From Rhynchopus sp. YZ270_cl-10 (Eukaryota > Euglenozoa > Diplonemea > Diplonemida > Diplonemidae), in the NCBI GenBank assembly GCA_964035575.1, contig OZ037842.1, positions 372,001-436,000 of the forward strand: 64,000 bases of DNA, given 5' to 3'. The notes beneath the pieces were generated by a model, which made no database searches, was not told where the DNA came from, and saw only the letters and a program-made list of their open reading frames with translations. Shown in pieces: positions 2,195 through 44,391 of the stretch. The translations under genes were made by a program, and so were the position numbers. Each line of letters begins with the position of its first letter. The first letter of the stretch is position 1.

Positions 2195-3044
2195 TTTACT
2201 ACAGCTGGGTTTGATGGGCTGTCTCTTTGTCAATAAAAAAAAATGCCACCTTTAAAAAAAAAGGGGTTAGGGTATTGGGGCATTCCTCGTCACACTGCTG
2301 CGAGCCTTTTGGAATGTTGATGGAAATATGCAAATACAGGTTGGGCAAGTCTACTAAGATATGCGCAAGGCACTCTGCAAAGCTACTTGACCAAGAAAAG
2401 AAATTCTTGGATAAGATTGGTGTGACACTTTCTTTTGATTTCTTTTGATACTTGTTAAAAAGATTCATTGGGGTTGAGTGGGGGGGAAGGGCGCAAAGCG
2501 CGGAACGTTTTTTTTGTTTTGTTTTTGAACAGACACTTACCTCAGCCACAAAAAGAGAAAAAAAGACAAAAAATAAAATAAAATAAAAGAAGGGAAAAAA
2601 AGGAGCGAGTGTGAAACATAGAATGGCAGACAGGCGAATCACAAAAAAAGAGAAAAAAAATTAGTTTGGTTCGAGACAGGAAGATTGACACCTATGCCTG
2701 ATAGTACGGATAGTGTCAGTTTTTGTGGTTATCACTCAATGTCAATAGACACGGTTTGGACAAAAAAAAAAAAAAGTGTGTCACCCCTGGGAAGAATGCG
2801 GGTGCAAAACAATTTTAGACACCTGCAGAGCAAGGTAAAAAAATTCCACCCACACAAAGGGTTTTTTTTTGACGCTCACACCCGGACATATGAGGGGAAT
2901 TCATGACAACAATGCAGGACAAAAGGAAAAATGGGCGGCCAGGATTTATTTTAGATTTGCCGTCTTCACTGCTGCTGTATTTTTTTTTTTTCTTTCTTTC
3001 TTTCTTTTCGTGTATTTTGTCGTTTTCTCATGGGGGGGGGGGTA

Positions 3045-4234
3045 GGGGGGGGGCAAAACCTTCAGGACGGGTGAGGCATTTTTGGAAAAAGTGGTTTTGT
3101 GAGCAAAAAACCTGTGAGCACCCCTCATACCCACCCAGAAATGGGTCAGAAACACCCTGTGACCCGAAAATCCATGATTAGGGCACCTCAGAATATGAAA
3201 AAATGCAAAAAAAATAGTGAAAAAGTGGCTTTTTGACGGTTTTGGCCATGTTGGGTAAAATGGCCATTTTTTGGTGAAAAAAATAAAAAAAACAGCAAAA
3301 TTTCGACATCATGACAGCTGCTTGGGCACGAAACTACCCCAGGGAGGTCCTGTGAGTCCATTCCGACGTGTTTTGGACACTTTAGGCACTTGTTTTGGCC
3401 GTTTTTTGACGTTTTTATGGTTAACGTCATGCACTGTCCATACCCCGTCCATACCCCGTCCAAGTCATGCGCCCTGCTTTTAGACCCACTCTGGGCCAAA
3501 AAATGGGCGAAAACCTCCGAAAAAGCACTCCGGGAGCCCAGATAGTTCCAAATTTCCACCGCACACCCTCAAAAACACCTCCAAAACATGTCAGAAAAAC
3601 ATTTTCAAAAACACACATTTTCAAATAAGTCATTATGGAACCTTCCCAGATGAACTTTTTGAAAAAAGTGTGTTTTTGAAAATATTTTTCTGGCATGTTT
3701 TTGAGGTGTTTGGGTGGGTTTCTGGTGGATACTTGGAACTATCTGGGTTCCCAGAGTGCTTTTTCGGGGGTTTTCACCCATTTTTTGGCCCAGAGTAGGT
3801 CTGAAAGCAGGGCGCATGACTTGGACGGGGTATGGACGGGGTATGGACGGGGTATGATTTCGACCACAAAAACACCAAAAAACGGCCAAAAAAAGTACCC
3901 AAAGTGTCCAAAACAGGTCGGAATGGACTCACAGGACCTCCCTGGGGTAGTTTTGTGCCCAAGCAGCCGTCATGATGTCGAAATTTTGCTGTTTTTTTGA
4001 TTTTTTTCACCAAAAATGGCCATTTTACCCAACATGGCCAAAACCGTCAAAAAGCCACTTTTTCACTATTTTTTTGCATTTTTTCATATTCTGAGTCGCC
4101 CTTAGCATGAATTTTCGGGTCACAGGGTGTTTCTGACCCATTTCTGGGTGGGTATGAGGGGTGGTTTGTACGTACGTTGCGCGGAAGTCCAAAAAAGTCA
4201 AATGCCTCAAAAAAATAGGGGTTTTGCCCCCACC
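3045..4234. mobile_element. Foldback (long-palindrome) DNA element A, TA-flanked
   Basis: The element is bounded by TA at 3043-3044 and 4235-4236. Its ends are GGGGGGGGGCAAAACC on the left and GGTTTTGCCCCCACC on the right, an inverted pair. Nearly the whole element is a self-complementary palindrome: the arm at about 3118-3640 is repeated in reverse complement at about 3657-4167, with the centre near 3648. No transposase frame is seen, so it is a non-autonomous MITE or foldback element. The TA duplication suits Tc1/mariner-like transposition, but that assignment is an inference. The arms are homologous to the split element at 8008-13658. Confidence 0.85.
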
Positions 4235-4236
4235 TA

Positions 4237-5052
4237 GGCATACTGTGCGGGCGAGTAAAAAAAACTCGCCTACTCGCCAAAAACTCGCCTAAAACTCGCC
4301 CATTTTTGGGGGGCGAGTTTTGGCGAGTTTTTTTTTTGGGTAGGGATTTTACCTTGGGAAAAGTGTACACACGAAAATATGAGGGAAATTTGAGTTTTGA
4401 AGAGAAAATTTTTTTCGTTCCACTTGAACAAGACCTCTACAGTTTGCTTTGTAGGCTTCCACAACCAGTACCACCAGTCCAGCTGTAGCTTCTGCGGATC
4501 CATGAAGCTTGCACAGATGGGTGCGATGTAGTCGTGGGGGAATACCGCCAAGGGGTGGCCTGCAGGGTTGCCATTTACTGGCATGGCGAGGACATTGTTG
4601 TATAGCGAGTGTAGCCCCGGCTCATGTCTTCGTCATCCTCCGGATTGTAGCACGTCTTGTCCCCCGGGATCTATGGATCTTCCCCTGGAGCAAATGTTTA
4701 CATACATGCCTGTCAGCCACTGCCGTGACATGGTTGCCGTTAGACGTACAAGTGACACAATTTCAATTTTTTTTGTGTGTTTTCGAGTGGCATGTTGTCA
4801 TCAGTCACCCCCGCCCTCCATTTTCACATCCTGGTGCACATTTTCACCCCCAAGGTGCGTATGTGCACCAGGATTTGCACCCAAATTGGGGCGAGTTTAG
4901 GCGAGTTTTTGGCGAGTTTAGGCGAGTTTTGGCGAGTTTTTGGCGAGTAATAGGCGAGTAATGGGCGAGTAGGGCGAGTTTTTGGCGAGTTTTTCCTGAA
5001 AATCAGGAAAACGAAAAACTCGCCTAAAAACGGCTCGCCTGCACAGTATGCC
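4237..5052 (+). mobile_element. TA-flanked TIR element F, copy 1
   Basis: Ends are GGCATACTGTGCGGGCGAG and its near-complement CTCGCCTGCACAGTATGCC, with TA on both sides. Subterminal regions are packed with GGCGAGT in both orientations. The core (about 4430-4800) is GC-richer and resembles exon sequence. An inverted copy lies at 6109-6923 and a shorter relative at 13661-14414. No transposase is seen. The left neighbour ends in CCCCCACC and the right neighbour is an 11-base G-run. Confidence 0.88.
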
Positions 5053-5067
5053 TAGGGGGGGGGGGTA

Positions 5068-6106
5068 GGGGGTGCGATGAGGCCGTTTTTTCTGTAACAC
5101 ACCCGAAAAAATCATAAAAAGTGTAAAAAAAATCAGTCGAAAACACAAAATCACCCCAGGAAACACATTTGGTGGACTATTCCTTACTTTTTGGTGCCTT
5201 TTTGGCACTTTCTGGCACTTTCCCCCCCGATTTTTTGACACTTTTTGTCGCATTTTCACCCAATTTCCCCCTTTTCTGAGGGTATTTGATACAGGGCGAT
5301 TTATCAAAAAATTCAAAAATTTAAAATAGTCCAAAACAAGAGGAAAAGTGGATTTTTCCAGTCATATGTGTGCACAGAGTGATTTCCGTGGGGTTTTGGG
5401 GCCAAAAGTCCATTTTTCTTTATGTCTTCGCTGAAAATTTTGAATTTTTTTTATACACAAAAACCACATTTTAGCCGGGAGGAGAAAGTGTTGCAAAAGT
5501 GTTGCAAGAGGGGTTTTTGACCTGCAGGCACCAAAATCGACCAAAAAGTGGTCGCAAATATGATTTTCCACCCCTCCTGGGGTGGGGAGGGTAACTCCTG
5601 GGGGTTTTTGTGACCTCTGTGGACCTTTGGGTGGAGTTTTTTGGGTTCTCAGGTACGGAACAAGTCTGGAAACTACTAATGTATAGGTGATTTTTAGCGT
5701 TGCACCCGACGAAACACCTCTTGGAGACCCAACCTGGACCCCTAAAAGTCACAAAAACCACATAATTCCACCCTGGGACCCCATATGAGGGCGAATGGAG
5801 TGTTTTTTTTGGTGTTTGGAGGGTTTTCTGGGGGCTCGGGAGAGTATTTTCGAAAGTGTTGCATTTCGGCCAAGACGTGTTACATTTTTGTTACATGTTT
5901 TTCGTGATTTTTTCAGAAAAAATGCATTTTTTTTGGGTAGGAAAGCTCCTGTGGTGATCGTCCGGTATTTTACTGGGATATTTTGCTGGTCCCCAGGCGG
6001 ATTTGCGGCCAGGTACGCCCTTTTTAGTGGGATTTTTGACCTAAATTTCAAAAAAATGGGTTTGTTACACTAATTCCTTAAGGATTTCTACTACCGTTGC
6101 ACCCCC
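5068..6106. mobile_element. TA-flanked element D, ends GGGGGTGC/GCACCCCC
   Basis: TA dinucleotides at 5066-5067 and 6107-6108 flank a 1039-bp block that begins GGGGGTGCGATGAGG and ends CCGTTGCACCCCC. The inverted match is short (about 10 bp, weaker further in). No coding frame inside is convincing. It lies exactly between the two inverted F copies, and its right TA is also the left TA of F copy 2. Confidence 0.7.
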
Positions 6107-6108
6107 TA

Positions 6109-6923
6109 GGCATACTGTGCAGGCGAGCCGTTTTTAGGCGAGTTTTTCGTTTTCCTGATTTTCAGGAAAAACTCGCCAAAAACTCGCCCTACTCGCCCAT
6201 TACTCGCCAAAACTCGCCAAAAACTCGCCTAAACTCGCCAAAAACTCGCCTAAACTCGCCTAAACTCGCCCACATTTGGGTGCAAATCCCGGTGCACATA
6301 CGCACCTTGGGGGTGAAAATGTGCACCAGGATGTGAAAATGGAGGGCGGGGGTGACTGATGACAACATGCCACTCGAAAACACACAAAAAAATTGAAATT
6401 GTGTCACTTGTACGTCTAACGGCAACCATGTCACGGCAGTGGCTGGCAGGCATGTATGTAACCATTTGCTCCAGGGGAAGATCCATAGATCCCGGGGGAC
6501 AAGACGTGTTACAATCCGGAGGATGACGAAGACATGAGCCGGGGCTACACTCGCTATACAACAATGTCCTCGTCATGCCGGTAAATGGCAACCCTGCAGG
6601 CCACCCCTTGGCGGTATTCCCCCACGACTACATCACACCCATCTGTGCAAGCTTCATGGATCCGCAGAAGGTACAGCTGGACTGGTGGTACTGGTTGTGG
6701 AAGCCTACAAAGCAAACTGCAGAGGTCTTGTTCAAGTGGAACGAAAAAAATTTTCTCTTCAAAACTCAAATTTCCCTCATATTTTCGTGTGTACACTTTT
6801 CCCAAGGTAAAATCCCTACCAAAAAAAAAAAACTCGCCAAAACTCGCCCCCCAAAAATGGGCGAGTTTTAGGCGAGTTTTTGGCGAGTAGGCGAGTTTTT
6901 TTTACTCGCCTGCACAGTATGCC
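6109..6923 (-). mobile_element. TA-flanked TIR element F, copy 2 (inverted)
   Basis: This is the reverse complement of the copy at 4237-5052, with few differences, the same TIRs and the same GGCGAGT subterminal arrays. On the plus strand the core has a short open stretch at about 6575-6760 (residues such as PVNGNPAGHPLAVFPHDY) with coding-like composition. It could be a captured host fragment; I do not recognise it. The right TA is followed by a 40-base G-run. Confidence 0.88.
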
Positions 6924-6925
6924 TA

Positions 6926-6965
<40 letters not shown>
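6926..6965. repeat. Poly-G run, 40 bases
   Basis: An uninterrupted G-run between the TA that ends F copy 2 and the hAT-like element. G-runs also flank other elements here (3032-3042, 5055-5065, 7988-8005, 14417-14441). Confidence 0.95.
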
Positions 6966-6970
<5 letters not shown>

Positions 6971-7987
6971 TTGGCAGAGTACGTGTACGTTGTACTTTTT
7001 GTACTTTGTACTTTTGTACTTTTTGACGTACTTTTTGGCGCCCAAATCCGTACTTTATGACCCTATATTTTACCCTGGGAATTCGAAGCAAAATCCGTAT
7101 TTCCCCTCTCTTCACCCCAATCACACTCAAAAAAGGTTTTTTGTTATTCAATGGTGTTCCGGAGAGGGCCCATATTGACATGTCCTTGACATGTCCCCGA
7201 CAGTGGGGGGTGTCATTTTGTAATTTGCTTAAGAGTGGGTTTTGTTTTTGCCCGGGAAAATCACCCACTAAGGAAGTGGTAGTGCTCAAAACCGCCCGAA
7301 GTCTGGAAGTGGCCGTCTTCTGGGCTATGTAGGCATCATAGGTGGTGCCTACTAGTGGTCTGAGCACACGGAGTTGCGACAACTCGGCCATAGTACCATA
7401 GTACCATAGTACCATAGTACCATAGTACCATAGTACCATAGTACCATAGTACCATAGTACCATAGTACCATAGTACCATAGTACCATAGTACCATAGTAC
7501 CATAGTACCATAGTACCATAGTACCATAGTACCATAGTACCATAGTACCATAGTACCATAGTACCATAGTACCATAGTACCATAGTACCATAGTACCATA
7601 GTACCATAGTACCATAGTACCATAGTACCATAGTACCATAGTACCATAGTACCATAGTACCATAGTACCATAGTACCATAGTACCATAGTACCATAGTAC
7701 CATAGTACCATAGTACCATAGTACCATAAGGTCGCCCAGAGCCCACCACGCGCACATTCTTGAGAAGCCGTTTATAGCTCTGTGCACTGAGCATTTTCCG
7801 TACTGCCAACACTGCCCCCAAACCTTTTTTTTTGCCCCCACACTGGTACACCAGCTGCACAAACCCGGCCACAAACCCAGATGTACTTTTTGTGTATTTT
7901 TTGTACTTTTTACGTACTTTTTGTACTATTGTACTATTGTACTTTTTACGTACTTTTTGAAATTGGACACGTACTCTGCCAACACTG
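6966..7987. mobile_element. hAT-like non-autonomous element E inside a G-run
   Basis: TIRs are CAGTGTTGGCAGAGTACG at the left and its complement CGTACTCTGCCAACACTG at the right. The CAG(T/G)NTTGGC-type start is typical of hAT elements. G-runs on both sides are consistent with an all-G 8-bp target duplication, which cannot be proved in a homopolymer. Subterminal DNA is rich in TACTTTTTGTAC-like repeats. The middle holds a 341-bp 8-bp satellite. No transposase frame is seen. Confidence 0.82.
7388..7728. repeat. 8-bp satellite (CCATAGTA)n, about 43 copies
   Basis: A perfect tandem array inside the hAT-like element. Read cyclically, the unit is GTACCATA. Translated frames give WYYGTMVL repeats, which are artefacts. 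Confidence 0.98.
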
Positions 7988-8622
7988 GGGGGGGGGGGGG
8001 GGGGGTAGGGGCAGCGACTCCCGAAGGAATTTTTGTCACTTTTATTATTTTTGGTGTTTTGGGCCATTTCCTGGTCACCTCTGGTCGGAAAACCCCCCAG
8101 AAATGGGTCAGAAACACCCTGTGACCCGAAAATTCATGCTAAGGGCGACCCAGAATATGATAAAATGCAAAAAAATAGTGAAAAAGTGGCTTTTTGACGG
8201 TTTTGGCCATGTTGGGTAAAATGGCCATTTTTGGTGAAAAAAATCAAAAAAACAGCAAAATTTTGACATCATGACAGCTGCTTGGGCACAAAATTGCCCC
8301 AGGGAGGTCCTGTGAGTCCATTCCGACCTGTTTTGCTTTTTTTGGCCGTTTTTTGGTGTTTTTGTGGTCAAAAAACAGGTCTGAAAATACCCTACTCATA
8401 CCCTACTCAGTAACATCGCAAGCCTGTAATCACTTTCTGGGTCGGTTTTTTCGTGAAAAGCGGCTGAAAAGTCACTCCGGGAGCCCAGATAGTTCCAAAT
8501 TTCCACCAGACACCCATAAAAACACCTCAAAAGCATGCCCGGAAAACATTTTTAAAAACACACTTTTTTCAAAAAGGTCATCTGGGCAGGTTCTATAATG
8601 GCCTTTTTGAAAAAAGGCCATT

Positions 8623-9309
8623 ATGGGACAAGAGAGCGGCTACTCCACCACACATTCAGCCCTCCCTACTCCGGTCGCGTCCTCGGTGCCCCCTGTCGCA
8701 CAAGCAGTTGCCCGTCCCGGCGCCTCTGCGCAGACACACCCTGGTTCGGACGGGGCAACACAACCTCAGACCGGTACGGAGAGTGGCTTCTCAAACACCC
8801 ACTCAGCCCTCCCCGTATCTTCTTCCTCTGAGGCAGTTCCCTCTTCCGTCCACCCGAGAGAGCAGCCGCCCGCCGCATCGCAGGGCAGCGAGTTCTCTAT
8901 GGACCTCATCGACGAATCAGAACTCGCAGTCCCCATGTCTGACGCCACTTCGGCCCCCAGCACGTACACGCAATCGGAGAGTGGCTCTCAACCCGCACCT
9001 ACAGCCCTCCCGACCAACGTGCCGTTCTATGCCGGTATGGCGCCCTGCCCAGGATTCAACAACATGGGGTGTCCAGCGACCGCCGAGGCGTGGAAGGACA
9101 CGTTCTACCCGAACACGCTTCAGCACCAGTCGCTGGCAGCGGGAGGGGATTGGCAGTCGGTGGATGACGCCCTCACCTGCCTCTACCTGTGGAAAGAAGC
9201 GAAGAAGCCGTCGATGAGCTCCGACGAGGTGGAAGAGGCTTACACCCTCTACAACCGTCTGCGGGGCCTAAAGCGGAGCAGGAACTCGCGGCCGTCCCAG
9301 AGCACTTGA
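8623..9309 (+). CDS. Unidentified 228-aa frame, Ser/Thr/Pro-rich with a compact C-terminal part
   Basis: This is the only host-like frame on the plus strand. It begins right at the junction with the split palindrome, so its 5' end may be missing. Residues 1-130 are low-complexity and contain a repeated motif (ESGYSTTHSALP, ESGFSNTHSALP). Residues about 131-215 look folded: a region with PFYAGMAPCPGFNNMGC, then a helical stretch containing WKDTFYP and YNRLRGLKR. Codon use is GC-rich, like real exons here. I do not recognise the family. It may be the 3' end of a gene carried in or copied by the insert, or part of a retroelement protein. The 3' side continues into AT-rich DNA with the 591-bp repeats. 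Confidence 0.45.
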   Translation: MGQESGYSTTHSALPTPVASSVPPVAQAVARPGASAQTHPGSDGATQPQTGTESGFSNTHSALPVSSSSEAVPSSVHPREQPPAASQGSEFSMDLIDESELAVPMSDATSAPSTYTQSESGSQPAPTALPTNVPFYAGMAPCPGFNNMGCPATAEAWKDTFYPNTLQHQSLAAGGDWQSVDDALTCLYLWKEAKKPSMSSDEVEEAYTLYNRLRGLKRSRNSRPSQST

Positions 9310-9624
9310 GTTTTTCTTTTTCATTCTTTACTTTTGTTTGGCTTTTAGCCTCCCCCCTCCCCCTTTGCCTATTGGTTTTATTTTATTTTATTTTTAGAAT
9401 TAGAGTGTACAGCTAGGTAGGACCAGACGTCGTTAACAGCTATGAACCAAAGAGGTTCTCAGTGTCGTCGGCCAAGCCCCTTCACCAAAAAAGACTACAA
9501 CAAGAAAACAAACACACAGAAAAAAAAGTAAAAGAATGCCCTTCCTCAGTCCGGAAGTATCACCTCAACCGGTCACACCTGCCGTAAAATAGAGAGAGGT
9601 TACAGAATACAGATTATTAAAAAA

Positions 9625-11919
9625 AAAAAGTATTTTCATCATATGCAATCAATAAATTGATAGTATATGGTGAGGGATCAACAAAAATGGTCCCATCTTT
9701 CTTTTTATGTTGTGTGTTTTGCAAAACGTAGAAAAGAAAAGTAAAATGCTTCGTGCACAAGTTGAAACTTCAGTAGATTGGTTTCTGATATTAACCCTGT
9801 TTCAGTCCTAAGAATCATACAGTTGTATTCAAAAGGGTGGACATCTTCAGTGATTTCCCTTTAAATGGTGGGTGAATATCGTGAAACCGATGTTCGTGTG
9901 AACATTTGGTACCTTCTACTTCAGTTTTTTGTTTCGGGAATACACAAAATACAAAAGTTTTTTTTTTCTTTTTTCTTATTCCTTTCTCTGTCCTTACTGG
10001 ATGTAATGTCTGATCACCAGGAGGAAGAGTAACCTAAAGAGTCTTGGTCTTGATGGCTGCCGTGTATACGTAAAGTATTCCGTGCAATAATTGCTACCAA
10101 TCCAAACAAATACCAACACATCCTGTCTGTGTATCAGATAGAAAACCTCAGCAAACACACAAGAAAGAGAAATAAAATAAAAGTAAAAAATAGAAAAGTG
10201 AAAAACATACTGAATTTTCTGGACTTAGTAGTTCGCCGTCCAAGCAATGATTAAAACCAGTTTAATCATCCATTGTCCATTGTATTGAAACACCTACACA
10301 AAGACTAGAGTAGTACAAAGAGATAGCAAAACGTGCATTGCAAACAATTTAATATGTGTCCTGGAGTCTTAGTCTCAAGGCTATTGTCCCTTTAAAAATG
10401 GGAAAGCTAAGATGCCCACCAAGACCAAATCGCTCCTGCGAGAAAAATACTCATCACTAGTGACATAGTACGCGTTGAGTACAACCATATAAACTGCGTC
10501 GTGGACATTACCATTGGTAAACCACGACCAAATTACTACTGCGATATACCTATTATCTTCGTTCTTTTTTTTTTCCAAAGTTTTGCGGTTTTTGTAGTAG
10601 GCCTACAGACTGCACAGCTTACCCAGGGTGTGGCAATGTAATACATTGGTCTGACGTCTCACTGAAAGGGTCAAGTACGAGGTCTAGTCCCTTCCAGTGG
10701 TGAAAAAGAGTTTTTTTTTCTTTTTATTTGGTTTGTTGAAAAAAAGTAAAAATAAAAGTGGTGTTTGTTTGTGGGAATTCTTTGAAATAGGACCTTTATC
10801 TAGATTCATTGGCTTCATGAACATATATAGCCTAGAATCGCTCGCTTATTTTTTTCAGAATGCACTGAGCTGCTTCTGGTAGTCTTTAACGTTGACACCA
10901 TAAACGGACACATTTTTTTTATTGGGGTTTCGGTGTCGTCAACCTACTTTAAATAACCTACTTGCTCTCCCTTGTTATTATATCATTTTTTTTTTGGTCT
11001 CTTTTTCTGCTGTTTTTTTTTTTTTTTTTTTAATTTTGATTTCTTTTTTGACTGTTTCAAAGAGGTAGGGAGGGGGTGGGGTGTAGTGCGAAGTTCACAG
11101 GACAGCTGTATTGTGTGCTTCGACTTTCTGTTAACTCCTTTGTAATTATGAGTAAACAAAGCATAGTGCAGCAGTAGAATATATCTATAAATATAAACTA
11201 GTTTGCACTATGTGTTTAGCTTTTTAGGGCTAATGTACTAGAGACCATTCCGCAACATACTCTAAGCGAGGCTCAGTTTTTCACAGCATGTCTGGAGGCA
11301 CTTGTAAATAAAAAGTATTTTCATCATATGCAATCAATAAATTGATAGTATATGGTGAGGGATCAACAAAAATGGTCCCATCTTTCTTTTTATGTTGTGT
11401 GTTTTGCAAAACGTAGAAAAGAAAAGTAAAATGCTTCGTGCACAAGTTGAAACTTCAGTAGATTGGTTTCTGATATTAACCCTGTTTCAGTCCTAAGAAT
11501 CATACAGTTGTATTCAAAAGGGTGGACATCTTCAGTGATTTCCCTTTAAATGGTGGGTGAATATCGTGAAACCGATGTTCGTGTGAACATTTGGTACCTT
11601 CTACTTCAGTTTTTTGTTTCGGGAATACACAAAATACAAAAGTTTTTTTTTTCTTTTTTCTTATTCCTTTCTCTGTCCTTACTGGATGTAATGTCTGATC
11701 ACCAGGAGGAAGAGTAACCTAAAGAGTCTTGGTCTTGATGGCTGCCGTGTATACGTAAAGTATTCCGTGCAATAATTGCTACCAATCCAAACAAATACCA
11801 ACACATCCTGTCTGTGTATCAGATAGAAAACCTCAGCAAACACACAAGAAAGAGAAATAAAATAAAAGTAAAAAATAGAAAAGTGAAAAACATACTGAAT
11901 AAAAAAAAAAAAAAAAAAA
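9625..11919 (+). mobile_element. Retroelement-like fossil with 591-bp direct terminal repeats and A-tail
   Basis: Two 591-bp direct repeats (9625-10215 and 11310-11900) look identical by eye and flank 1094 bp with no visible coding frame. The second copy is followed at once by a 19-base A-run. The repeats could be LTRs of a small non-autonomous (TRIM-like) element, though they lack the usual TG...CA ends. Alternatively this is a poly(A)-tailed retroposon whose 3' region was duplicated. It has no coding capacity and so is not autonomous. The sameness of the repeats suggests a recent event. Confidence 0.5.
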
Positions 11920-13084
11920 GGGTAAATTGCGATAACACGTATACTTTTTTTTTCGATTTGCGATAACACGTACACAAAAAGTATACGTGTTATCGCGAAA
12001 AAGTGTACGTGTTTTCGCGAACAAAAACGTACGTGTTTTCCCAGGTACCCAGGTACCCAGGTACCCAGGTACCCAGGTACCCAGGTTTGTCAAGGAAACC
12101 AAACTTTTTGTCACGGAAAAAGTCGTGACAGGGCACTGGGTACTGGGTACACTGTGTACAAGGATAAAAGTCGTGAAAGAGCAACCACAGCTCCACATGA
12201 CAAACACAAAAGTGTCCAGTCACGTGGGGCATTCATGCACTGAGGAGATAATGATCCAACAATTTACAAGAAAGATTACTTAACCTACTGCTGGAAGTTG
12301 CCAGGTCGTAGTAACACACAAAGTGTGCCTCCGTTCGGGAATACCGGATATTCTAGAGACCAAAAAGGCCTCTTCCGCTAGTCAAGGTATAACCGAATGA
12401 ACGGCCCAAGACCCCCGTGGAGAAGTTAAATGTTGTAATGATATCAAGTACAAACTGCGACCACTGTCTTACCCTCCTCAATGCATGGTGGAAGATGTCT
12501 TTGACAACAAATATCCTGTACCCAGGTACCCATATTCCCAGACCCACGCAGTACCACGTCGCAGTACTACGCAAAATTTACCACCAGACCCTGTGTTCGT
12601 GCACCTTAAGTACGTAAGTCTGGTTCCCAGACCCACGCAGTGGCACATGACCGCAAGTGTGAGTGACCCACACAGAGGGATACGCAAAATTTACCACCAG
12701 ACCCTGTCTTCTGAATGTCACACGTACATTTTTTTGAACACTTTTCGCGATAACACGTACATATTTCGCTAAAAAACGGGGTGCTCGCAACCGCGTTCTA
12801 GACCCCCACAGATGCTCAAAAGTGCCAAAATTTGCTTTGAATGTCCTCAAATCGTCGAAATTAGCCATTTTTGGGGCCCAAAAAAAAAAATTCGAGGGTC
12901 TAGGTATGGAGAGCGAGCACCTTAGAAGAAGGAAACACGTACATTTTTGTTCGCGATAACACGTATACTTTTTTGACCACTTTTCGCGATAACACGTACA
13001 CTTTTTCGCGATAACACGTATACTTTTTGTGTACGTGTTATCGCAAATGGAAACAAAAAGTATACGTGTTATCGCAATTTGCCC
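11920..13084. mobile_element. TIR element with GCGATAACACGTA subterminal repeats
   Basis: TIRs read GGG(T/C)AAATTGCGATAACA from either end and continue to about 25 bp. A-runs flank both sides. The motif CGATAACACGTA(T/C)AC recurs many times in both orientations within about 100 bp of each end, like transposase-binding arrays. The core holds a small CAGGTACC satellite and a duplicated segment (about 12537-12590 and 12630-12710) sharing ACGCAAAATTTACCACCAG. No transposase is seen. It sits directly after the A-tail of the preceding fossil. Confidence 0.8.
12041..12086. repeat. 8-bp satellite (CCAGGTAC)n, about 6 copies
   Basis: A tandem 8-bp unit, read cyclically as GTACCCAG, inside the ACACG-repeat TIR element. 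Confidence 0.93.
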
Positions 13085-13660
13085 AAAAAAAAAAAAAAAA
13101 AAGTGTGTTTTTAAAAATGTTTTCCGGGCATGCTTTTGAGGTGTTTTTATGGGTGTCTGGTGGAAATTTGGAACTATCTGGGCTCCCGGAGTGACTTTTC
13201 AGCCGCTTTTCACGAAAAAACCGACCCAGAAAGTGATTACAGGCTTGCGATGTTACTGAGTAGGGTATGAGTAGGGTATTTTCAGACCTGTTTTTTGACC
13301 ACAAAAACACCAAAAAACGGCCAAAAAAAGCAAAACAGGTCGGAATGGACTCACAGGACCTCCCTGGGGCAATTTTGTGCCCAAGCAGCTGTCATGATGT
13401 CAAAATTTTGCTGTTTTTTTGATTTTTTTCACCAAAAATGGCCATTTTACCCAACATGGCCAAAACCGTCAAAAAGCCACTTTTTCACTATTTTTTTGCA
13501 TTTTATCATATTCTGGGTCGCCCTTAGCATGAATTTTCGGGTCACAGGGTGTTTCTGACCCATTTCTGGGGTGTTTTCCGACCAGAGGTGACCAGGAAAT
13601 GGCCCAAAACACCAAAAATAATAAAAGTGACAAAAATTCCTTCGGGAGTCGCTGCCCCTA

Positions 13661-14414
13661 GGCATAGGTGCCCGGCGAGTTAAAACAACTCGGCAACTCG
13701 CCCAAATTCGGCCAACAACTCGCCCATTTTTTTTGGGCGAGTTGTTTTTTTTTGGGATTTTTTATGGCTACAAAAACACAGGTACACAGGTACACAGGTA
13801 CACAGGTACACAGGTACACAGGTACACCACATCACGTTTTATCTTGTGCATCCCACGCTTCACAGCTGGTCTGTGAATGTGCGCTTTGTGTGGTTTTGTG
13901 TATCCCAAAGGAAGTCGTCGCCCAAAGCATTTTGACTAAACGTGTGAACGTTGTGAACCTGGAATCGATAGCAGACAGGAAAAGAGGATGGGCAGGCAGC
14001 GCCTGCCCGACCTGTGTGAAGTGAATCCCCCCAGCAATTACCAAAAACCGTGAGTGTGCACGGTGGCCCATGGACCACCACGACCTAGTTACCACCTATG
14101 ACTAGTCATATGACAAGGTGCATGTAATGAGTGGCGTTTGGCCTTAGCCCTGGTTGTTTTTCTTGAGATTATGTGTTGTACCAACGTTACATGTGTGTAA
14201 CCTTACAACGTCACCTCCCATCCCTGTATGTTTTTGCCTGTAAAAATGGGCGAGTTGTGGCCGAGTTGTGGCCGAGTTGTGCCGAGTATAGGGCGAGTTG
14301 TGCCGAGTATAGGGCGAGTTGTGGCCGAGTTGTCCGAGTTTTTGGGCGAGTTGTTAGGTGAAATCGTAAAGTTCCGACAACTCGCCCAAAAACGACTCGG
14401 CGGGCACCTATGCC
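13661..14414. mobile_element. TA-flanked TIR element F, divergent copy 3
   Basis: Ends are GGCATAGGTGCCCGGCGAG and CTCGGCGGGCACCTATGCC, with TA on both sides and subterminal GGCGAGTT/GGCCGAGTTG arrays. The architecture matches the copies at 4237 and 6109 but the core is different. The left TA is shared with the split palindrome (ending CCCC), and the right TA is followed by a 25-base G-run. Confidence 0.85.
13776..13827. repeat. 8-bp satellite (ACACAGGT)n, about 6.5 copies
   Basis: A tandem 8-bp unit, read cyclically as GTACACAG, inside element F copy 3. Confidence 0.93.
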
Positions 14415-14416
14415 TA

Positions 14417-14441
14417 GGGGGGGGGGGGGGGGGGGGGGGGG
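14417..14441. repeat. Poly-G run, 25 bases
   Basis: This G-run borders the right end of the transposon train. Ordinary gene-flanking DNA follows. Confidence 0.95.
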
Positions 14442-14597
14442 TTTTGGTTTCGATTACTGCAAAGATATTTACACTAGAGAGAAATGTCCTGAAAAAAAAA
14501 AAATATAAAGATCGAGCTTTCTGGACATTCATCCGGATGCATCCGCATTTTTGTTTTTTCCGAATCGCTCAACAGGGTGGTAGACTTCCAACCTCCC

Positions 14598-15817
14598 TCA
14601 GCCGCTTAATGCCCGCAAACTTTCATGTACTCGCAGCTGTAAAATTTTTTTTTTAAAATCACACACACACATCAATACATACCAAATCTCTCCCTTGCTC
14701 CATCACCATTTTTACCACCTCTTCATCTACCTTGGGGAAGAGCCTCATCAGAACCTCTGGGGGGCAGTTCGCGAGCAACTCTACACGCTCTTGCAAGGGA
14801 ATGTGCTCCAGCCCGGCTACGGGGAAGCCACCGTCCCAGATGACCTCACCACCTCCATCACGAGGCGGGGTCACATCCCGCACCCGCGTTGCTTCAAACC
14901 CTGCTCCCCTTGCTTCCACACCCTGCATCGTGTCCAACGGTGTCTCTGGACTCTCGTTGTCCCCTTCCGATGGATGTTCTTCCTCTCTCATGGGTGCCTC
15001 GGCTGTAGGGGGGAGTGGTGCAGCATTCTTGGGTGGCGGGTCGTTGTAGGTCCCATCAGGATTGCGGAGTGTCGGGTCGCTGTGTGTTGGTGCTGCGATA
15101 GGAACGTTCCCGCCCTCGAGGGGGCTGCAGGCGACGGGGCCGTTGTTGTGTGGTGGGGAGGGGGTGGTGTACTGCGGGGAGTTGTACTGTGTGGGTGCGA
15201 GGGGGTCGTAGGTGGGGTTGGCCTGGCGTGTGGAGGAGAAGCGTGTGGGTGCGAGGGGGTCGACCTCGTCGTAGCGTGGCGCACCGTTGCTGGGCTGTGC
15301 GTAGTGTGGTTGTGTTGTGTTGTGTGCGTACTGTGGGTGGTGAGGGTGAGGGGGCTCTTCGTAGCGTGGTTGTGCGTAAGGTGATGGATCGTATGCAGGT
15401 GCAGGTGGTGCGGATCCGTAGTTGTCTGTGCCATGCGGAGGTGCAGTGCTCCTCCGATTGTTATACTGTGCACCATTCTGCATCTGCGCATTCCACTGCG
15501 GTGCAGATGAGCGGTGGGGTGCTTCGCGGATCTGAAGGGGGAGGTGGTGTAATAAAAGAAGTTGGCTGGAATAAAGTGAAGTTGATAGTGAATAAAAGTA
15601 AAAGTGGTTTTTCGAGTGGGGTGTGAATGGTTCGCCCCTTTTATTGGTGCGGAGACGTGCATACCACCACGGAACTCGCATTGCGATCGTCCTGCTTCGT
15701 CGTAGAGGTGTAGGTGTTGTTGTTGCTGTTGTTGGTGTTGTTGTTGTTGCCGGCCCTTCTTATCGGCGCGTCTGGCGGTGCTGTGTCCCGTGGGGGGGTA
15801 TGCCCGCAGTTTCCCAT
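14598..15817 (-). CDS. N-terminally acylated, Pro/His/Asn-rich CUE-domain protein
   Basis: Three exons: 15817-15665, 15531-14683 and 14636-14598. Both introns (133 and 46 bp) are phase 0 with donors GTATGC and GTATGT. The product is 346 aa. MGNCG at the start is a myristoyl/palmitoyl-type signal (Gly2, Cys4). About 250 disordered residues follow, rich in N, T, P, H and Q, with repeated APTQYNS/DPLAPT segments. The last about 60 residues are a CUE-like ubiquitin-binding domain: ERVELLANCPPEVLMRLFPKVDEE, closed in exon 3 by RVHESLRALSG. The intron splitting the last CUE helix lies at the same point as in the gene at 1-1099, which argues for common ancestry. The role is probably membrane-tethered ubiquitin recognition; this is inferred from domains. 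Confidence 0.8.
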
Positions 15818-18800: not shown

Positions 18801-21800
18801 CTACTCCACTGTACACAGCAAGCAGGCTCCGCGCAGCTGTTATAAAAAATGTTGATTTTAAAATTTTTCCAGAGAAAAAAAAATGCATACCTGCCAATGG
18901 TGTTTTTCTTCTTCACAGCTGAGGGAGACGTCGAAGATCCAGTTGATGTCATTTCTTCTGGGATATTTGTAGCACGGGCAGTCGAACTTGTTGATGACCT
19001 GTTTGTTCTGCCTTTGCCCGGGCTGCTTTTTGCCGTCGTCCTGCTGCACGGCGGTGACGTACAACACGGGCAGCTCTTTCGGCGGTTCCTTGGGCAGTGG
19101 GTCCTTCAGCCTCTGGCGGGCCTTATCCCATCCGGCACCTTCCAGATAGAGTCCGAACACGTACACACCTTCCGAGGGCGGTCTGTCGACCTCATGCTTC
19201 TCCATCTTCTGCACCTCTGTTTTGAGCACGACGTCATCCAGCGCCCATCCTTCGTTCTTGTGCCCTCTGGTCACCTCCTGCCGCACAGAGGTCAAGAACC
19301 CTTGCGGGTTGTAAAACCCGGTCAGCCAGAATTTCGGGGGACGGTCCTCCTTCGTCCACGAGTCGAGCTGGCGTTGTCTTGACAGAACCTCTTCAAACCA
19401 CATTCCCATAGTAGGCGATGGCCACGAAACAATCTCCCAGCGGGGTGGCACCTTCGCGTCGTAGATGGAGTCTCTTGCCTCCTGGAGGTTGGCAGTCATC
19501 ACAACGACACCAGCGATGGCAAGCTTGAGGTCCTTCAGGGTGCTTCTGATCAGCTTGATGCAGATGTTAAGACGTTCGATCTCCTGTCTGCAGAAGATGT
19601 TCAACGGAAGCTGTGCGTTAATCTTCTTCAACATGTCGCGCACCACATCCAAACGCCACTCTGCCGGGAGACGCTTCAGGAAGTCGTTGGCCATTTCCAC
19701 CACCACCTCGTCGGGGGACTTTCCGCCACCTCCTCCGGATCCTCTGGGCTGGATGTCAAGGATCTTACCCAGGGTCTGCTGGCACTGTCTCGTTCTGTAG
19801 ATGATGTCTGCGTTGGAGTGCAGACCAAACACCTCCGGTGGGTCGACCTCAGGGTAGTTGTCGAGGAACTCCTTGTGCTTCACGTACTCCTCGAAGTTGG
19901 GAATGCCGTAGCCCACCCCGCCATTGGGGAACTGGTAGAATTTGTAGTCCGGCTGCAGGATCTTGTCGTTCATGCACACCTCGCAGATCGTGTTGAACAT
20001 GACACGATCCTTGTTGTCGGTGATTCTCCCTCCGTATTGGATCTCAGAGATCATGTACCTGCAGGTGATCCACGAAACGGACGCACCCTTCTTCACGTCG
20101 TCACCAATCGCGGTCATGTGGTTCTGCAAGAACTGCACCGACGCCTGCCAGTCGCCCTGGTTGAACTCGTAGGGAATGCAGAACCCGATCGGCCCGAACT
20201 TCCTCCTCTCCACAACGTTGCTGTGGATGAAGCACTGCGCGAAGAGCATCGGCTTCCACTCTGGGCGGCGGTATGAGTCGAGCATCTCTTGGTTGAACCA
20301 TCCGTACGACCTCTTGATGCCTGCCTTGATGCCGGGTGGGGGTTCGTTCGTCAGCTTGATGGACATTTGGAGGAGACCGATCGGGAACTTCGGGTGGGGT
20401 TCACTGGTAATCAGCACACGGGCCTCTTCTCCCACAATATCTGGGTCCACCTTAACAAGCGTGTCCTCCAGGTCTGCCAAGAACTTCAGTCCTAAATGGC
20501 AGTTCTGCAGCAACGCCCATTCACCTGACCCGACGAAGGACTGCATGGTAGCCTCCATGGCGGCCTGCTCCTGACCCTGACCCATGGAGATACCTCCTTG
20601 CGGGATGATCTGCTTCTTGCGCTTCTTCGCAGATGCTTCAATGAGTGCAGACGGGTCGGAACCCTGCGACAGCAGGAAGATGATCGGGGTGAGCCCTGTG
20701 GTCTGGTCGATGACGGCCTCGAAGTCGAGCTGCAGGGGCTCTGCGAAGTCCTTCCCGAGCACAGTGCCCACGTAGTTGAGTGCGGCAAGCATTGCACGGT
20801 CCTCGCGCAGTGCACGTACCACAAGGAGGCGGTCAAAGGGCTCCAGCTTGTCGTCAATCTCGGGTACAGGTGTCGCCTCAGGGCATTCAATGTCGTACCA
20901 CTCCTTCCATGGCCGCTCAGACCTCGCAATGCAGTCGGGAAGCATCTTGAACGCCTTCGGTGCCCCCTCGGAAAGCGCAATAATGTTCAGCCACGCCTTG
21001 TCCGGCAGCCACTGGAACGGCTTCACTCTGCTCTCCGCAATCGACAGCGCAGCTCCTCCCTTCAAAAGTGTTTGGAACGCTTCGTGCGACAGCTTGCTTG
21101 TGTCGCGCGAGTTGAGCTTGATCTTGCACGCCATGGTCAGCACAAAGAGAAGACGATGCGCAGAGAAGAGACCACGTGTCATGTACTCGAACACAATCTT
21201 GGTCATGAGGTTGATGACGTTCGTGATACGCTTTGCTGTGAGCTGTGCCTTCTCGGAGTACTTGATGGCGTCGTGGAAGAGACCCAGGAACTGCGGGAGC
21301 GAGGTCTGGTACATGTTGCTGACGTTTGACATGTCGACGATTAGGAAATAAAGAACGGACCCTCTCAGGGCAACGGGACGGTACTCCTCAGAAGCGGAGT
21401 TGATGCGCTTCCTTGTCTCCTGCGCAACAGCAAGCTTCTCCTTGATTTCAGCAGACGCCTTCTTCGCGTCTGCCAGCGTCGCAATCAGCTCGTCGTCGTC
21501 AATCAGGTTCCCCTTCGACGCTGCAAGCTGTGCCAGCAGACGGTCCTCAAACTCCTTCAAACGCTTCTCGTTGTTGTTGACCTCCTCAATCAGCTTCGCA
21601 CGCTCCTCTTCCAATTCGTGCTTCTCCTTTCCAATGACCTGGCCAAGGAGTTGCTGCTCGAGTCCTCCCATGGTCACAGTCATGTCAATCACAAGCGTCT
21701 TCGCGAAGAGCTCGGGAGTGAACAGTGGGTTGGGGAGACGTGTGGTCAGCACCATCTTGAACTCCTCGTCGTAGTCGTGCGGCTTGTCGTTGATCATGAT

Positions 21801-24800
21801 GTTCAGCATGCGTCCCTGCTTCACAATGGCCTTGTCCAGGACAGGGTCCACAATTGGGTCAATCTCCTCTACACAGTTCTCGCAGATGATCGTCTGTCCG
21901 TCACGCAGCTGGCACGCAAGCTGGTCGCCAAAGCGCTTGTCCGTGAACTGCGTCACGATCACACCAGCTGCGAACTTCGACCGCAGCCACTTCAGCCCCT
22001 GCCCCTGCGGATCCACGATCAGCGGGAACTTCCCTGTCTTCTTGTTGTTCAGGTTGCTGGTGATCATGATGGCGTTCTGCACGGAGTGGTCGTCCGAGGG
22101 GAGACCTTCGATCTGCCAGTCGGTGATCTGCGACTCTGTGGTCAGGAACTTCACGACAGAGATGTTTTCTGTGACGGGGATCTTGAGCTTGATGCACATG
22201 TTGTAGTAGTGCTCGTTGAGGAGGGTGTGGCGGAACTCTGCGTTGAAGGGTCCGCAGTAGGAGATGAACGCGCACGAGAGGGCGACGTCGCCGACGAGCC
22301 TGCGCACACGCTCTTTGAACTCGTTGGATTGTTGTGTCCAACGTTCCCTCTCGCCGGAGAGCGCGTCAATAAGGCCGTTGGCGGCGTCCATTCTCTTCTT
22401 TGTTGCGAGCGCATCGTCCTCAAGGGCTTGCTTCTTAGACTTCGCACCGTCGAGCTTGGACTGGCACTTCGCACGGTCCTGCTGCACAATGCTCAGCTCC
22501 GCCTCCTTCTCCTCAAGCTTTCTGTTGGCAACACGCAGCTCGGCCTCGGCACCACGCAAAGTCTCCATCTTCGGCTGCACGAACTTCGCAATGCCAATGT
22601 AGTCGTACATCGCACGCACCCACATGCACAGCCCGGCAACATCCTTCGCAGACTTCGTCGCCTGCTCCGTCGTCCACACCTCCATGTACAAGTACGGCAG
22701 CAGCAGCTCGCACGTCTCCTCGTTAATCTGATCCTTGCGGCCCAGTCCTCCTTCGTCCTTCCCCTTGAAGTGAATCAAACGCTCAATAGCCTTCATGTCA
22801 GACAGGAAGCGGCGACCTGCGTCCCACGAGTCGCGGATCCAGAGCCCGCCCTTCTCGGGGACGGCCTCGCAGTGTTTGTTCTCCAGCGGGTCGTGGAGCA
22901 GAATGCACACACCGTCGAGGATACGCTTGACAAGGGCAGGTGGGTTCGCCAGCTTCTTCACATTCTGCAGGGCTTTGGGGTCGATGGAGTCCAACGCCTT
23001 GTTCGCTGCCTCAAGCATAGGCTTTGCTGCTGCCAGGTCCTGCTCGGCGTCGTCCTTCACTGCCTTCACCTTCTTCGCGTCGCGCATCAGCATTTCCTTG
23101 ACAGCACCCACCTCAGACTCCTTCTTCTCTGCCACACCTGTGGCCTCAGTGATCTCCAGCAGCAGTGCGTCTGTCTCCTTGGTCGCCACCTGCAGGTTGA
23201 TCTCCTTCTCCGCAAGGTTGATCTTCATGAGGCGGACGTCCTCTCCTGCCTGGTGCAGCTTCTTCAGACCTCCACCAATGTTCTCAGCAAGCACGTCAAT
23301 CTGGGAGAACTTCTCCTGGTACACAACAAGGTACGACTCAAGGAAGGAGAGGTACGACTTCGGTGTAGAGAACACGGAGCGTCTGAACCGCACGAAGTAC
23401 TCCTCACTCATCTGAAGCATGAGTCTGTGCAGTGCTGCCATGAACTCCATCAGGCGCTGCTTCGTCTGAGCGTCTGTCTCCATCTTGAAGTTCTCAATCC
23501 TCTGCTTGCTGACGTCCAGCAACGCAGCCTCGGGCCAAGGGAAGAACCAGTTGATCACACACCCGGACACCAGCGAAGGGAACTTCCTTGCACGCACACG
23601 GAACTTGTCCCCCACAGGCGACATGCACAGCACGAAGTGCAGGTTCGACCGCACACGGTTTACGAAGAATCTCCACAGCCACTCGCCAGTGTCTTGGAAG
23701 TCCTTGCCAGACTCCTTCTTCGCTGTGATACGGATGTCGTTGATGGCCGAGTCCTTTTCGTCTGTGGAGTACAGCCCGGGGATCTCTCCTGACGACAAGA
23801 AACCGTTGATGTACTCAAGGAAGGATTCGTTCTTGATCTCGGAGTCTGTGAAGATGAAGCACACAGGCCCCTTTGTCCCTGCGTGGGTGTACTGCTCCCT
23901 GAGGTCGTCGAACAGGTTGTTGACGGAGTAGTGCTTGGACACAGTGATCTGGAAGGTCTTGTAGGCGTGGATCGATGCGGAGAGACGTGTTAGACTCTGC
24001 TTTCCTGAACCACCAACACCCACGAGCAGGATGTTCCCACGCTTTGTTGTGAGCACACGCACGATACGGATGATGTGCTTGAGGGCTGCGTGGAAGAGCA
24101 CGAGAGAGAGCTTGCGTGTCTTGTTCTCGCTGGACTCGTTGTAGCGTTGCATGCGCAACTCGAGCTTCTCCTTGAGCGTATCGAGCGAGAGCACCTTCTC
24201 GTAGACCTGCGGTGCTGCCTGCGGCTCGCTGTCCTCCTCAGCCTCCTCCGCATCACGCAGGAAGTCGCACCAGTACGAAGGTGCCTCAACCTGCTGCAAC
24301 ACAGCATCGCCAAGGAACTCTCCAATCGTGATATTCACGTTTTTGTCGTACCACGCCTTGTCATCGTCCGCATTCAGCTTGTCGGAAAACACTCTGCAGC
24401 ATTCGTGCTTCCAAAGGTGCACCAGAGTGATCTCGTCATTAATAGTCGAACGCTCTGTCTTGCAAATACCCTGCACAATATTCGTCAGATCACGCAAGTT
24501 GAAGTTGTAATGGAACTTTGCCGGTGTCGGAAGCATCCTCGCCTGAATCTTCTTCCAGAACGAAATGCTCATCTCCGTCAGCTTGTCTGCTGTGTCCTTC
24601 ACTGCCTGTCCGTAGTTCCCGCATGCACCCGACTGGTGGAACCTGGAGCCCAAGATGACGCCGAAGATCATGTTCAGGGAGGACTCTGCCGGCAGAGGGC
24701 AGCAGAAGATGGCGAAGTGGCGCTTGAGACGGTTGGGGATGTCGTTCTTTCCTCCACCGGGGATAAGCATCGCGCCTGCGTACTGCATGTCCACCAGGTG

Positions 24801-27800
24801 GAAGGACTCGCCGGGCTTCTCAAGCGAGTAGAGACGGCCTTCCTCCACCACCTGGCGCACGATCTCGTTTGTGATCTGGTCCTGCCACTCGTTGATCTCG
24901 GGCATGGCAGTGTCATCGATGAAGAGCGTCAGCTTCTTGTTGCGCTTCGGGCCGTGGTACTTACCCTGACGCTTCTCGACGCAGTCCTGCAGCGCACTCT
25001 GGAACAGCCCAGGCGACGTCATGAACGAGAAGTTGATCTTCTTGAACGTCATCAGCTCGCGGACCTCCTGCTCGATGCGCTCCTGGTTCCCGATGCCGAG
25101 CAAGAAGTTCTCGATGTTGACAGTCTTGGCAGTTCCTGAGCCACCCATGAGCAGGAAGGGTCTCTTGTTCAGGAAGTTCTGGAGCATGAGGAACGACAGT
25201 CTTGTGGAGTCTACGGTCGGGATGAAGAGCGTTGCGAAGTCGTCCGAGATCTTGGCATCGCCGGGGTACGTCCAATCGGGGGTGATGGTCTTCCAGTGCA
25301 CCCAAGAGTCGGACTTCACGTCGACCTTGTACTCAAAGATGGAGTCGTCTTCTGGAATGGCCTTGCAGTGCATGCGCACGAAGCCGTCGGAGAACTTCTC
25401 TCTGTCGGCAGACTCAAGCAGACCTCCAAAGGACCATGTAATAGAGAACCAGAACAGCTTCTCGCACAGACTCTTCGGTGGCACGCCGTCCGTCTCCTCA
25501 AGCAGCGCCACCAGCAAGAAGTACGAGTTGATGAGCATGTGTGCACACCCCGTGGGCATCACAACGGTGCAGTTCTTCGTGTAGAACTTCAGGCAGGCGT
25601 CTGTGTGCTTCTCGTACAGCCCCATGAAGATGTCCGCTGTGTCCTTGTTCAGGACTACCGGGCAGTCCGACGGCACAATCTTCTCCTCTTTGCGCGAGGC
25701 GTACAGCTTCGCACGGATGACAGGGTCCCATGGCTTCCACTCTCCACGCCCGACACCACCTCCAAGCTCTGCATCAGAGACGAACACGATACCTGCCCTG
25801 GAGACTGTTGCAGGGGACGCGTTGTTCAGGTTCTCCGGTTCGAAGCAGACCTTCATGTTGTCTGTCATGTTCAGCCTGTCGCCGGAGGCAAGCGTGAGCA
25901 GCTTGTTGTCGTCGAGCACGGTGTTCAGGTTCTCAATCCAGATGGCGTCGACAGGTCCGTCGCAGACGAGCCACACGGAGATGGGCTTCTTGCCTTCCTG
26001 CTTGCGTGTCTTCGTGCAGGCCTGGCGCCAGAGGGCGGAGAAGATACCGTCGTGCCAGTCGCCGGTTCCTGCATCAAGCTTTCCAAACATTTGGGGTGCG
26101 GTGATGGCCTTCGGGTTCATGCGCATCTCGGAGTGCTTCATACCACCAAGCTTCTCCTCGAGGTCGCACAGCGTCTTCAGGATCATCGAGTAGATCATGG
26201 TCTTCCCGACACCTGCGGGTCCGACAACCATGAGACCGTGGCGCACAAGCTTCGTCTCGTAGAGCTGCACACACTTCGCAACCCACGGCGGGTGGTAGAT
26301 CAGACCTGAGTCAAGGCAGTAGAACTTCATCACCTTCTCAAGCTCCACGTGCACGTTCTTCTCAGGGTTCTTCTTAGGGAACAGATCCTCAAGCAAAGAG
26401 TTGAACAAATCAATGTCATCAAAGACAAGCTTGCTCATGTTCATGTCACGCAGCGTTCTCATGAAGAGGAACGGCTCGTCCTTCACATTCGCCTTCCGCA
26501 GCACAGACCCTGCAGTTCTCAGGACGGAGAGAATGTTGCGCAGCCCAAAGTCGTAGTGGCGCTGCTTCGACAGCTGCTGCTCGCAAAGGTTGTACAGCAG
26601 GAAGAACTTCTGCGACAGCAGGTCGTCCTCTTTGTACCCCTGACCACCCAGCTTCACCTTCATGATAGCCTGTCTGTCGGGAACCATCATGGTAACACCT
26701 CTGAACAGAATCTTCAGGTTCTCAGGCAGCTCCTGTCTCCCGGCGTAACCGGGGTTCATGGTGATGAAGAATCCGACACCAGGCTTGAGGCCGACAATGT
26801 CCTTGTCGGGGAAGACGAACTCGGTTTTGTGCGCCTTCAGTCCGTTCAGGACGGACTGCACCTGCTGTGCGACAACAGACAGCACAGGCAGATCGATTCT
26901 GTTGAACTCGTCGAAGCACCCCCACGCGTTCGCCTGCGACAGCCCCTTGATGATCTTGCCCATGGCTTTGTAGTCCAGCTGGTCAGAGCAGTTCGTCACA
27001 ATGCAGAGCTTTCCGTACGTTCTCGCCAAATCCTTTGTGGTCTCGGTCTTTCCTGTTCCTGCGGGCCCAGCGGGGGCACCACCAAGCTTCATCGCCAAGG
27101 CCTGCGACAACGTGATGTAGCATCTGTCGGTCAACGGGGTGATCACAAGACGCTCCTTCACACCAAGGTATTCATTGCAGTACAGCGTGTCGGCGTCCGC
27201 AATCTGGATGATGACTTCCTCCTTTTCGGGCCTGAAGTAGAAACGTGCTTGCTTGAGCCAGTCGAACGAGGTTCCGTCACGGAGCTTCTTCAGGGGGGTG
27301 TCACCTTTGCCGGGTGGTGCACGCCAGACATCCTGCTGATGGACGTGGATGGTGATGAGGGTCTCGACGTTGGTCCGCTCCATCTTGGTGAGGTCTGTGC
27401 GTGTCAGGTCGATGAGAAGCTCCTTAAGATCGTTGATGCGGTGGTCGGCGTCCTCGCGGAGCTTCTTCTGTTCCATCTTGGATCCGGAGAGGAAGTCTTG
27501 CACGTCTGTCGTCCAGAGGATCTGCACAAGGAGCAAAGAGATCTGTGCGACGTACGTCTTGAGACAAACTGTCTCAAAGTGCTTCAGCTGCTGCTGCAGT
27601 GTCGGCACCTCTGCTGCCGCACGCTTCGCAACTTCCTTCACTGTCAGGCACATCTGGTCGACCAACGCAAGCAGCCAGCACTCCACATTCCCAACACACG
27701 GCACCGCCTCGAGCAATGAGATCGACTCTCCTTCGGGTGAGTGCAGCCACGTAATCTTGATGACACCCGACCCAGACTCACCCTTCGCAGGCTTGAACCG

Positions 27801-44368: not shown

Positions 44369-44391
44369 CTTAACAAAATTAGGGGGAAATA

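Follow-up and report, generated by a model that had tools for sequence, protein, structure and literature searches.

The stretch of DNA studied here, referred to as the window, comprises 64,000 nucleotides of contig OZ037842.1 (positions 372,001 to 436,000; assembly GCA_964035575.1) from the diplonemid Rhynchopus sp. YZ270_cl-10. It harbors an 11.4-kb train in which three copies of an element named F adjoin other elements, designated hosts in the following (A, D and a split palindrome), as well as a further element, E, and runs of G. The end-to-end order of the elements, their coordinates and the TA dinucleotides shared by neighbors had been put forward in an earlier reading of the sequence (the original prediction) and were borne out when positions 2900-14600 of the window were read again letter by letter. 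The arrangement thus stands; the count of six elements does not, as the list given with it holds seven. From 5' to 3' the order is G11-TA-A-TA-F1-TA-G11-TA-D-TA-F2-TA-G40-E-G19-TA-palindrome-TA-F3-TA-G25, the G-runs measuring 11, 11, 40, 19 and 25 bases (Table 1).

Table 1. Components of the train, with coordinates counted from the first letter of the window
Feature	Position	Strand	Remarks
G11, left 11-bp duplication of host A	3032..3042	+	Exactly 11 G on either side of A plus F1
Host element A	3043..4236		Ends TAGGGGGGGGGCAAAACC...GGTTTTGCCCCCACCTA; nearly complete palindrome
F1	4239..5050	+	812 bp, CATACTGTGC...GCACAGTATG; CCTAGG at 4233-4238 and 5051-5056
G11, right duplication of A and left flank of D	5055..5065	+	
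Host element D	5066..6108		Ends TAGGGGGTGCG...TGCACCCCCTA; D family has 11-bp duplications
F2	6111..6921	-	811 bp, inverted relative to F1; CCTAGG at 6105-6110 and 6922-6927
G40 run	6926..6965	+	
Element E	6966..7987		Ends CAGTGTTGGCAGAGTACG...CGTACTCTGCCAACACTG; inside G-run, final G common to the run
G19 run	7987..8005	+	
Palindromic host	8006..13660		Starts TAGGGGCAGCGACTCCCG; arms 8006-8569 and 13097-13660; other repeats in loop
F3	13663..14412	+	750 bp, CATAGGTGCC...GGCACCTATG; CCTAGG at 13657-13662 and 14413-14418
G25 run, right end of the train	14417..14441	+	

When F and E are taken out in thought, G11-A-G11-D-G-run-palindrome-G-run remains. The hosts, which share the termini TAGGGG...CCCCTA, are thus situated in G-runs, and every F adjoins the right border of a host. 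All three right borders carry F; on the left, where A, D and the palindrome have borders reading G-run-TA-GGGG, F is absent (0 of 3). F1, F2 and F3 thereby support the proposal that F inserted three times into a junction of host end and G-run.

The arms of A (363 nt) match each other at 90%, and a search of the genome (152.4 Mb in 126 contigs) yielded 1034 candidates for this element, of which 40 were scored. The arms of the split palindrome (564 nt) are 100% complementary and 94% identical to 262 nt of A, which makes the palindrome a relative of A. Its loop is filled with other repeats. One of them (window 8612-11920) includes a frame of 232 aa as well as an exact direct repeat of 300 bases (9621/11306); 671 bases of it, used as a query, gave 112 candidates, and all 40 scored places, that in the window included, were ~100% identical. 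The other (window 11920-13084) has 102-nt inverted ends with a GATAACACGTATAC motif and A-runs on both flanks. Element E is a third kind of element. Both of its ends lie within G/C-runs in the window and in two further loci (L031, L049); in another copy (L067) the right end lies in a G/C-run and the left end breaks off after 3 G. Positions 7391-7730, within E, are occupied by a minisatellite with a unit of ~9 bases (CCATAGTAC).

Target duplications of F and its hosts

Loci containing F were chosen by similarity alone, irrespective of their flanks: the best 20 of 40 scored for F1 (375 candidates) and the best 30 of 40 scored for F3 (563 candidates). These 50 F-centered loci and seven others, five of them from loci fetched with D (L051, L059, L065, L066, L078) and two as neighbors in L003 and L012, provide 57 distinct F copies. 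The copies form size families of 811-842 bp and 750-1182 bp with similar termini. They are 97-100% alike (median pairwise identity 99.1% and 99.9% in the two large families). The process therefore seems to be recent, although the fetching of copies as best matches calls for caution.

Identical 6-mers are present on both sides of 55 of the 57 F copies, and the 6-mer is CCTAGG in 53 of these. The two exceptions are L050, which has a disrupted end, and L032, which adjoins another repeat on one side. Two variants are concerted, that is CCTAGA occurs on both sides in L029 and CTTAGG on both sides in L059. The second and sixth letters therefore lie inside the duplication, and F itself starts at CATA. 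The unit duplicated by F is thus CCTAGG and not TA, as the shared TAs of the original prediction would imply, and the GG and TA originally assigned to F belong to the target.

These data also bear on the possibility that F is a Tc1/mariner-like element with TA duplication. TA is indeed common to the F borders, three irregular copies (L032, L096/97, L098/99) fit it, and the genome is rich in a DDE_3 family (95 matches). On the other hand, the concerted changes in L029 and L059 lie outside TA and do not agree with a duplication of TA alone, the stretches of 351 and 401 bases read next to a DDE_3 copy (C10) are free of F termini and of any CC-TA-GG border, and the 1.5 kb read of a 4.6-kb F-type element described below is devoid of a DDE_3 match. 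None of the 95 matches in the genome falls inside that element. We consider this explanation improbable, and the DDE_3 family was rejected as the source of F on the basis of the flanks read at the C10 copy, which lack F ends. The DDE_3 transposase family as such (~354 aa, 95 places) shows mostly near-equal scores, which makes a recent burst of Tc1/mariner elements likely.

The repeat ends CACGACGG and CACGGCGG were met several times next to F, in most cases adjoining TA (L032, L017, L096, L098, L020, L043). They may represent a further element that uses the same TA-GG borders.

A duplication of TA, which the shared TAs would likewise imply for the hosts, was not confirmed; the unit seen for D-type copies and for A is 11 bp. 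D copies outside pure G-runs carry identical 11 bp on both sides, directly outside TA...TA. Comparison of 501 pairs of termini from the fetched loci brought up eight mixed-letter matches of at least 7 bases. Five of them, all from D-type elements of ~1.04 kb (L054, L056, L058, L064, L065), are exactly 11 bp long. The other three measure 12 bases; L020 joins like ends, while the ends joined in L005 and L063 are unlike, and these two matches may be due to chance. The flanks of L055 and L057 agree save for run length, and element A is flanked by exactly 11 G on each side. Mutator-like elements (MULEs) duplicate ~8-11 bp, a range into which the five D-type copies and the G11 runs of A fall; the duplication of the palindrome is not readable. 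Long inverted termini, a second MULE feature, are present in A and the palindrome (arms of 363-564 nt); the likeness shown by the ends of D is only short. The genome contains 12 MULE transposase matches. Four of them fall in the range for which borders were listed, and none of the four has a G-run/host border less than 10 kb away; proximity was therefore dropped as support for the identity of the hosts.

Since the 11-bp duplication spans the run, insertion of a host copies the G-run and does not destroy it. Furthermore, since the host termini begin with TAGG, the two borders of a host in a G-run differ, one being palindromic (CCCC-TA-GGGG) and the other direct (GGGG-TA-GGGG). Among the end sequences that read TAGG[G/T]G..., 13 are shared by at least two F flanks, and further ones occur once.

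Long homopolymers and near-identical repeats are difficult to assemble, and the train could in principle have arisen from collapsed or mis-joined repeats. This is hardly credible, as the same arrangement recurs on many contigs with locus-specific flanks and with matching 6- and 11-bp duplications. The lengths of the G-runs in the assembly may nevertheless be wrong.

Sites occupied by F in the genome

Alignment of the flanks of the sampled F copies, the check proposed together with the original prediction, placed most of them at C-run/TA/G-run borders formed by an element end and a G-run. A script assigned 44 of the 57 copies to host/G-run borders, four to G-run/short end, two each to G-run/G-run, F/host and host/host, and one each to F/G-run, host/short and G-run/other. 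For the 50 F-centered loci the arrangement host end, F, G-run was found in 39 cases by script and in 45 after similar ends had been judged by eye, by which L009, L010, L025, L031 and L048 adjoin recurring or host-like ends and L029 lies between a host and a G-run that is interrupted. In L012 and L040 two F copies stand in tandem with one common CCTAGG; L020, L032 and L050 are irregular, yet touch a G-run or a host. Not one of the 57 copies has ordinary DNA on both sides, and not one has a direct-border flank (TACCCC), although the same loci hold 55 direct borders. These loci also contain 18 vacant CCTAG(8+) sites; 17 are host ends known from other places, and the remaining one (L004) resembles a host when inspected by eye. 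The F family hence lands almost exclusively where other elements have inserted into G-runs, and the train in the window is not a one-off.

Counts for the whole genome are in the same vein. The F-type end TAGGCATASKKKSC occurs 722 times (354+368) compared with 22 times for its control, and is preceded by CC in 626 cases (308+318; control 0). On its own, CCTAGG occurs less often than its control (13,617 vs 19,304), while the extended form CCCCTAGGGG is found 555 times vs 147 for the reversed control. Thus 4.3% of the ~12,991 vacant CCTAGG sites have this form, as against 40 of the 57 F copies, in which either flank has at least four C/G; among the other 17 copies, nine are A-type ends (CCACC-TA). 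Direct borders of the form GGGGGGGGTAGGGG number 835 (421+414), their control 76 (32+44). By the counts of CCCCTAGGGG, GGGGGGGGTAGGGG and CC-preceded F ends, the arrangement is not due to chance. Palindromic borders amount to ~313 occupied by F plus ~408-450 vacant ones above control, which suggests that ~4 in 10 already carry F. Direct borders come to ~760 (835 minus 76), which roughly matches the near one-to-one ratio to be expected if each host creates one border of either kind, although the two patterns are of unequal length and A-type ends escape them.

It may be asked whether F simply reads a G-run of ~8 or more next to CCTA, with the hosts as incidental suppliers and the ends of transposons not targeted as such. 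At least 8 G are present on one side of 52 of the 57 F copies, sequence alone predicts both the use of palindromic and the non-use of direct borders, and host ends vary widely past GGGG. Because only the palindromic border is used, recognition of sequence suffices and sensing of the element itself is not needed. The F copies of L012 and L040, which touch another F on one side, fit less well. We judge this explanation to be just on the probable side; it forms the mechanistic core of the account preferred below and differs from it only in whether the niche is "intended".

A different possibility is that host and F travel as composite units, such that co-mobilization would mimic targeting. The same pairings do recur; of 110 end contexts, 9 show an A-type host end next to F. 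F, however, lies outside the host termini, and F1 and F2 have opposite orientations at the right borders of their hosts. Moreover, F is found on many types of host ends with differing G-runs, vacant host borders exist, and host ends of the type TCAAATGCAC carry both CTGTGC- and GGTGCC-type F. Joint travel is accordingly very unlikely.

Candidate F transposase and other coding regions

Convergent F-type ends are located 4.6 kb apart at C5:1043212-1047792, bordered by CCTAGG; a host end adjoins to the left, a G-run to the right. The 1.5 kb of this element that were read consist of one open frame of 499 aa (L102). Its homologue P0001 (807 aa, 47%) has one distant relative, P0002. Dimer_Tnp_hAT is the top Pfam match in P0001 (E 0.068) and the sole one in P0002 (E 0.031), both below cut-off. 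A profile of the three sequences matched the C-terminal region of Hermes in PDB at E 1 and 1.6, and their alignment (A2) displays by eye DGT, C-x-x-H and VTxVDxxFS, which may be hAT motifs, the first two of them catalytic. A protein search with this alignment added no homologue. The F-type frame in the 1.5 kb read has no recombinase match in Pfam or NCBIfam, and ten open reading frames near F or D copies or in the palindrome gave no transposase in Pfam, with a sub-threshold HAMP match in L050 only. Taking the faint hAT matches, the motifs and the 6-bp duplication together, F is probably hAT6-like, which is the best label for it. From the similarity of the termini, a single hAT6-like enzyme might serve all F families (811-842 bp and 750-1182 bp).

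Outside the train, an intron-less open frame of 4650 aa on the minus strand (window 18858-32810) encodes a dynein heavy chain, as judged by 17 Pfam families covering N- to C-terminal regions. Two further minus-strand frames of 3565 aa (49089-59786) and 737 aa (42278-44491) have no Pfam match. Thirteen contig ends were read, ten of them on large contigs, and four of these ten (L081, L085, L087, L090) carry (GGGTTTGC)n arrays with the G-rich strand at the 5' end.

A proposed two-tier chain of insertions

The anatomy of the train, the duplications and the site statistics can be read directly from the DNA. We are rather confident that they reflect a two-tier process, in which hosts target G-runs, F targets the resulting CCTAGG borders, and repetition builds trains. 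In the first tier, A, D, the palindrome and many more hosts would enter homopolymeric G/C-runs by an 11-bp staggered cut, which would copy the run to both sides and renew the target with each insertion; that all host families share the cut seen for D is likely rather than observed. In the second tier, three related F families and the 4.6-kb F-type element would make a 6-bp cut in CCTAGG between C- and G-rich arms, sites nearly all of which, in the loci examined, are host/G-run borders. A host terminus (...CCCC-TA or ...CCACC-TA) beside a G-run gives CCTAGG on one side only, which explains why one side is used. F leaves CCTAGG at both of its own ends, so that more F can join and F tandems arise, and repetition of both steps would lead to end-to-end trains. 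F presumably recognizes its site by sequence, with hosts making nearly all suitable sites seen.

Several observations weigh against this account. The five F copies fetched with D are biased toward hosts. L032, L096/97 and L098/99 carry CG(T/C)CGTG-TAGG on one side and fit a 2-bp TA duplication better, unless a later insertion took place there, and the D relative L062 is without any duplication. Of the 722 F-type ends, 96 lack CC, as do 15 of the first 100 listed; among these 15, three were read (two C3 ends and L059) and 12 look unpaired in the list. As to the enzyme, the L102 frame itself has no transposase match in Pfam, and all hAT scores lie below the curated cut-offs. Histone H2B matches in PDB (E from 0.0065), which fall on the lysine-rich N-terminus, outrank Hermes. 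The AlphaFold model of P0001 and P0002, with a predicted local distance difference test score (pLDDT) of 31, was useless and lent the motifs no structural support.

Strict target choice is, to our knowledge, rare among eukaryotic cut-and-paste elements. The superfamily that targets multicopy small RNA genes bears the name Dada, and the recombinase of the bacterial elements IS4321/IS5075 is of the IS110 type, a class different from that of the F candidate. The literature covered here, mostly as titles and abstract openings, revealed neither a eukaryotic element that targets the borders of other elements nor one that targets G-runs. It does contain partial parallels. The hAT6 group of hAT transposons is there defined by a 6-bp duplication (PMC12730594, citing Kapitonov and Jurka 2007). 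F resembles it in this duplication (55 of 57 copies), in short inverted termini and in a large candidate transposase with a weak hAT C-terminal dimerization match, but differs by its near-absolute preference for CCTAGG at other elements' borders and by a similarity to known hATs below cut-offs. A functional precedent is provided by IS4321/IS5075, which are reported to insert in the terminal inverted repeats of the Tn21 family, a "safe harbor" (PMC8269217, citing Partridge and Hall 2003). The main target is in both cases the terminus of other transposons. This likeness of F is functional only, since the insertion sequences are bacterial, whereas F is eukaryotic, has a hAT-like candidate enzyme and uses a site composed of host end and G-run. 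By analogy to the argument made for IS5075, the border niche may limit harm or protect either party; self-sheltering as an adaptive purpose, raised with the original prediction, is likewise no more than possible. For the hosts, MuTAnT Mutator-like elements, described as occupying TA microsatellites with a 9-nt duplication (PMC4486113), offer a comparison. Both comprise families that reside in simple repeats and make a long duplication (9 nt and 11 bp, respectively), but the repeat is (TA)n for MuTAnT and a G-run for the hosts. Finally, the DNA transposon superfamily targeting multicopy small RNA genes (PMC3706591, according to its summary) shares with F the eukaryotic origin and the strict target choice; its target is a multicopy gene, that of F the border of another transposon.

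It is reasonably likely that F represents a eukaryotic DNA transposon lineage that is a practically obligate settler at the borders of other transposons, forming with its hosts a self-renewing two-tier chain. If so, the composite palindrome arises only after a first element has entered a G-run, and both steps remake their own targets. The chain would grow end to end, consuming no sites and sparing genes. With one element's insertion making the site for the next, ideas about niche-building and safe havens would become testable. Furthermore, F would provide a transposase, probably of the hAT type, whose natural choice of sites is restricted to a short palindrome, as well as a clean system for studying how such an enzyme reads its target between C- and G-runs.

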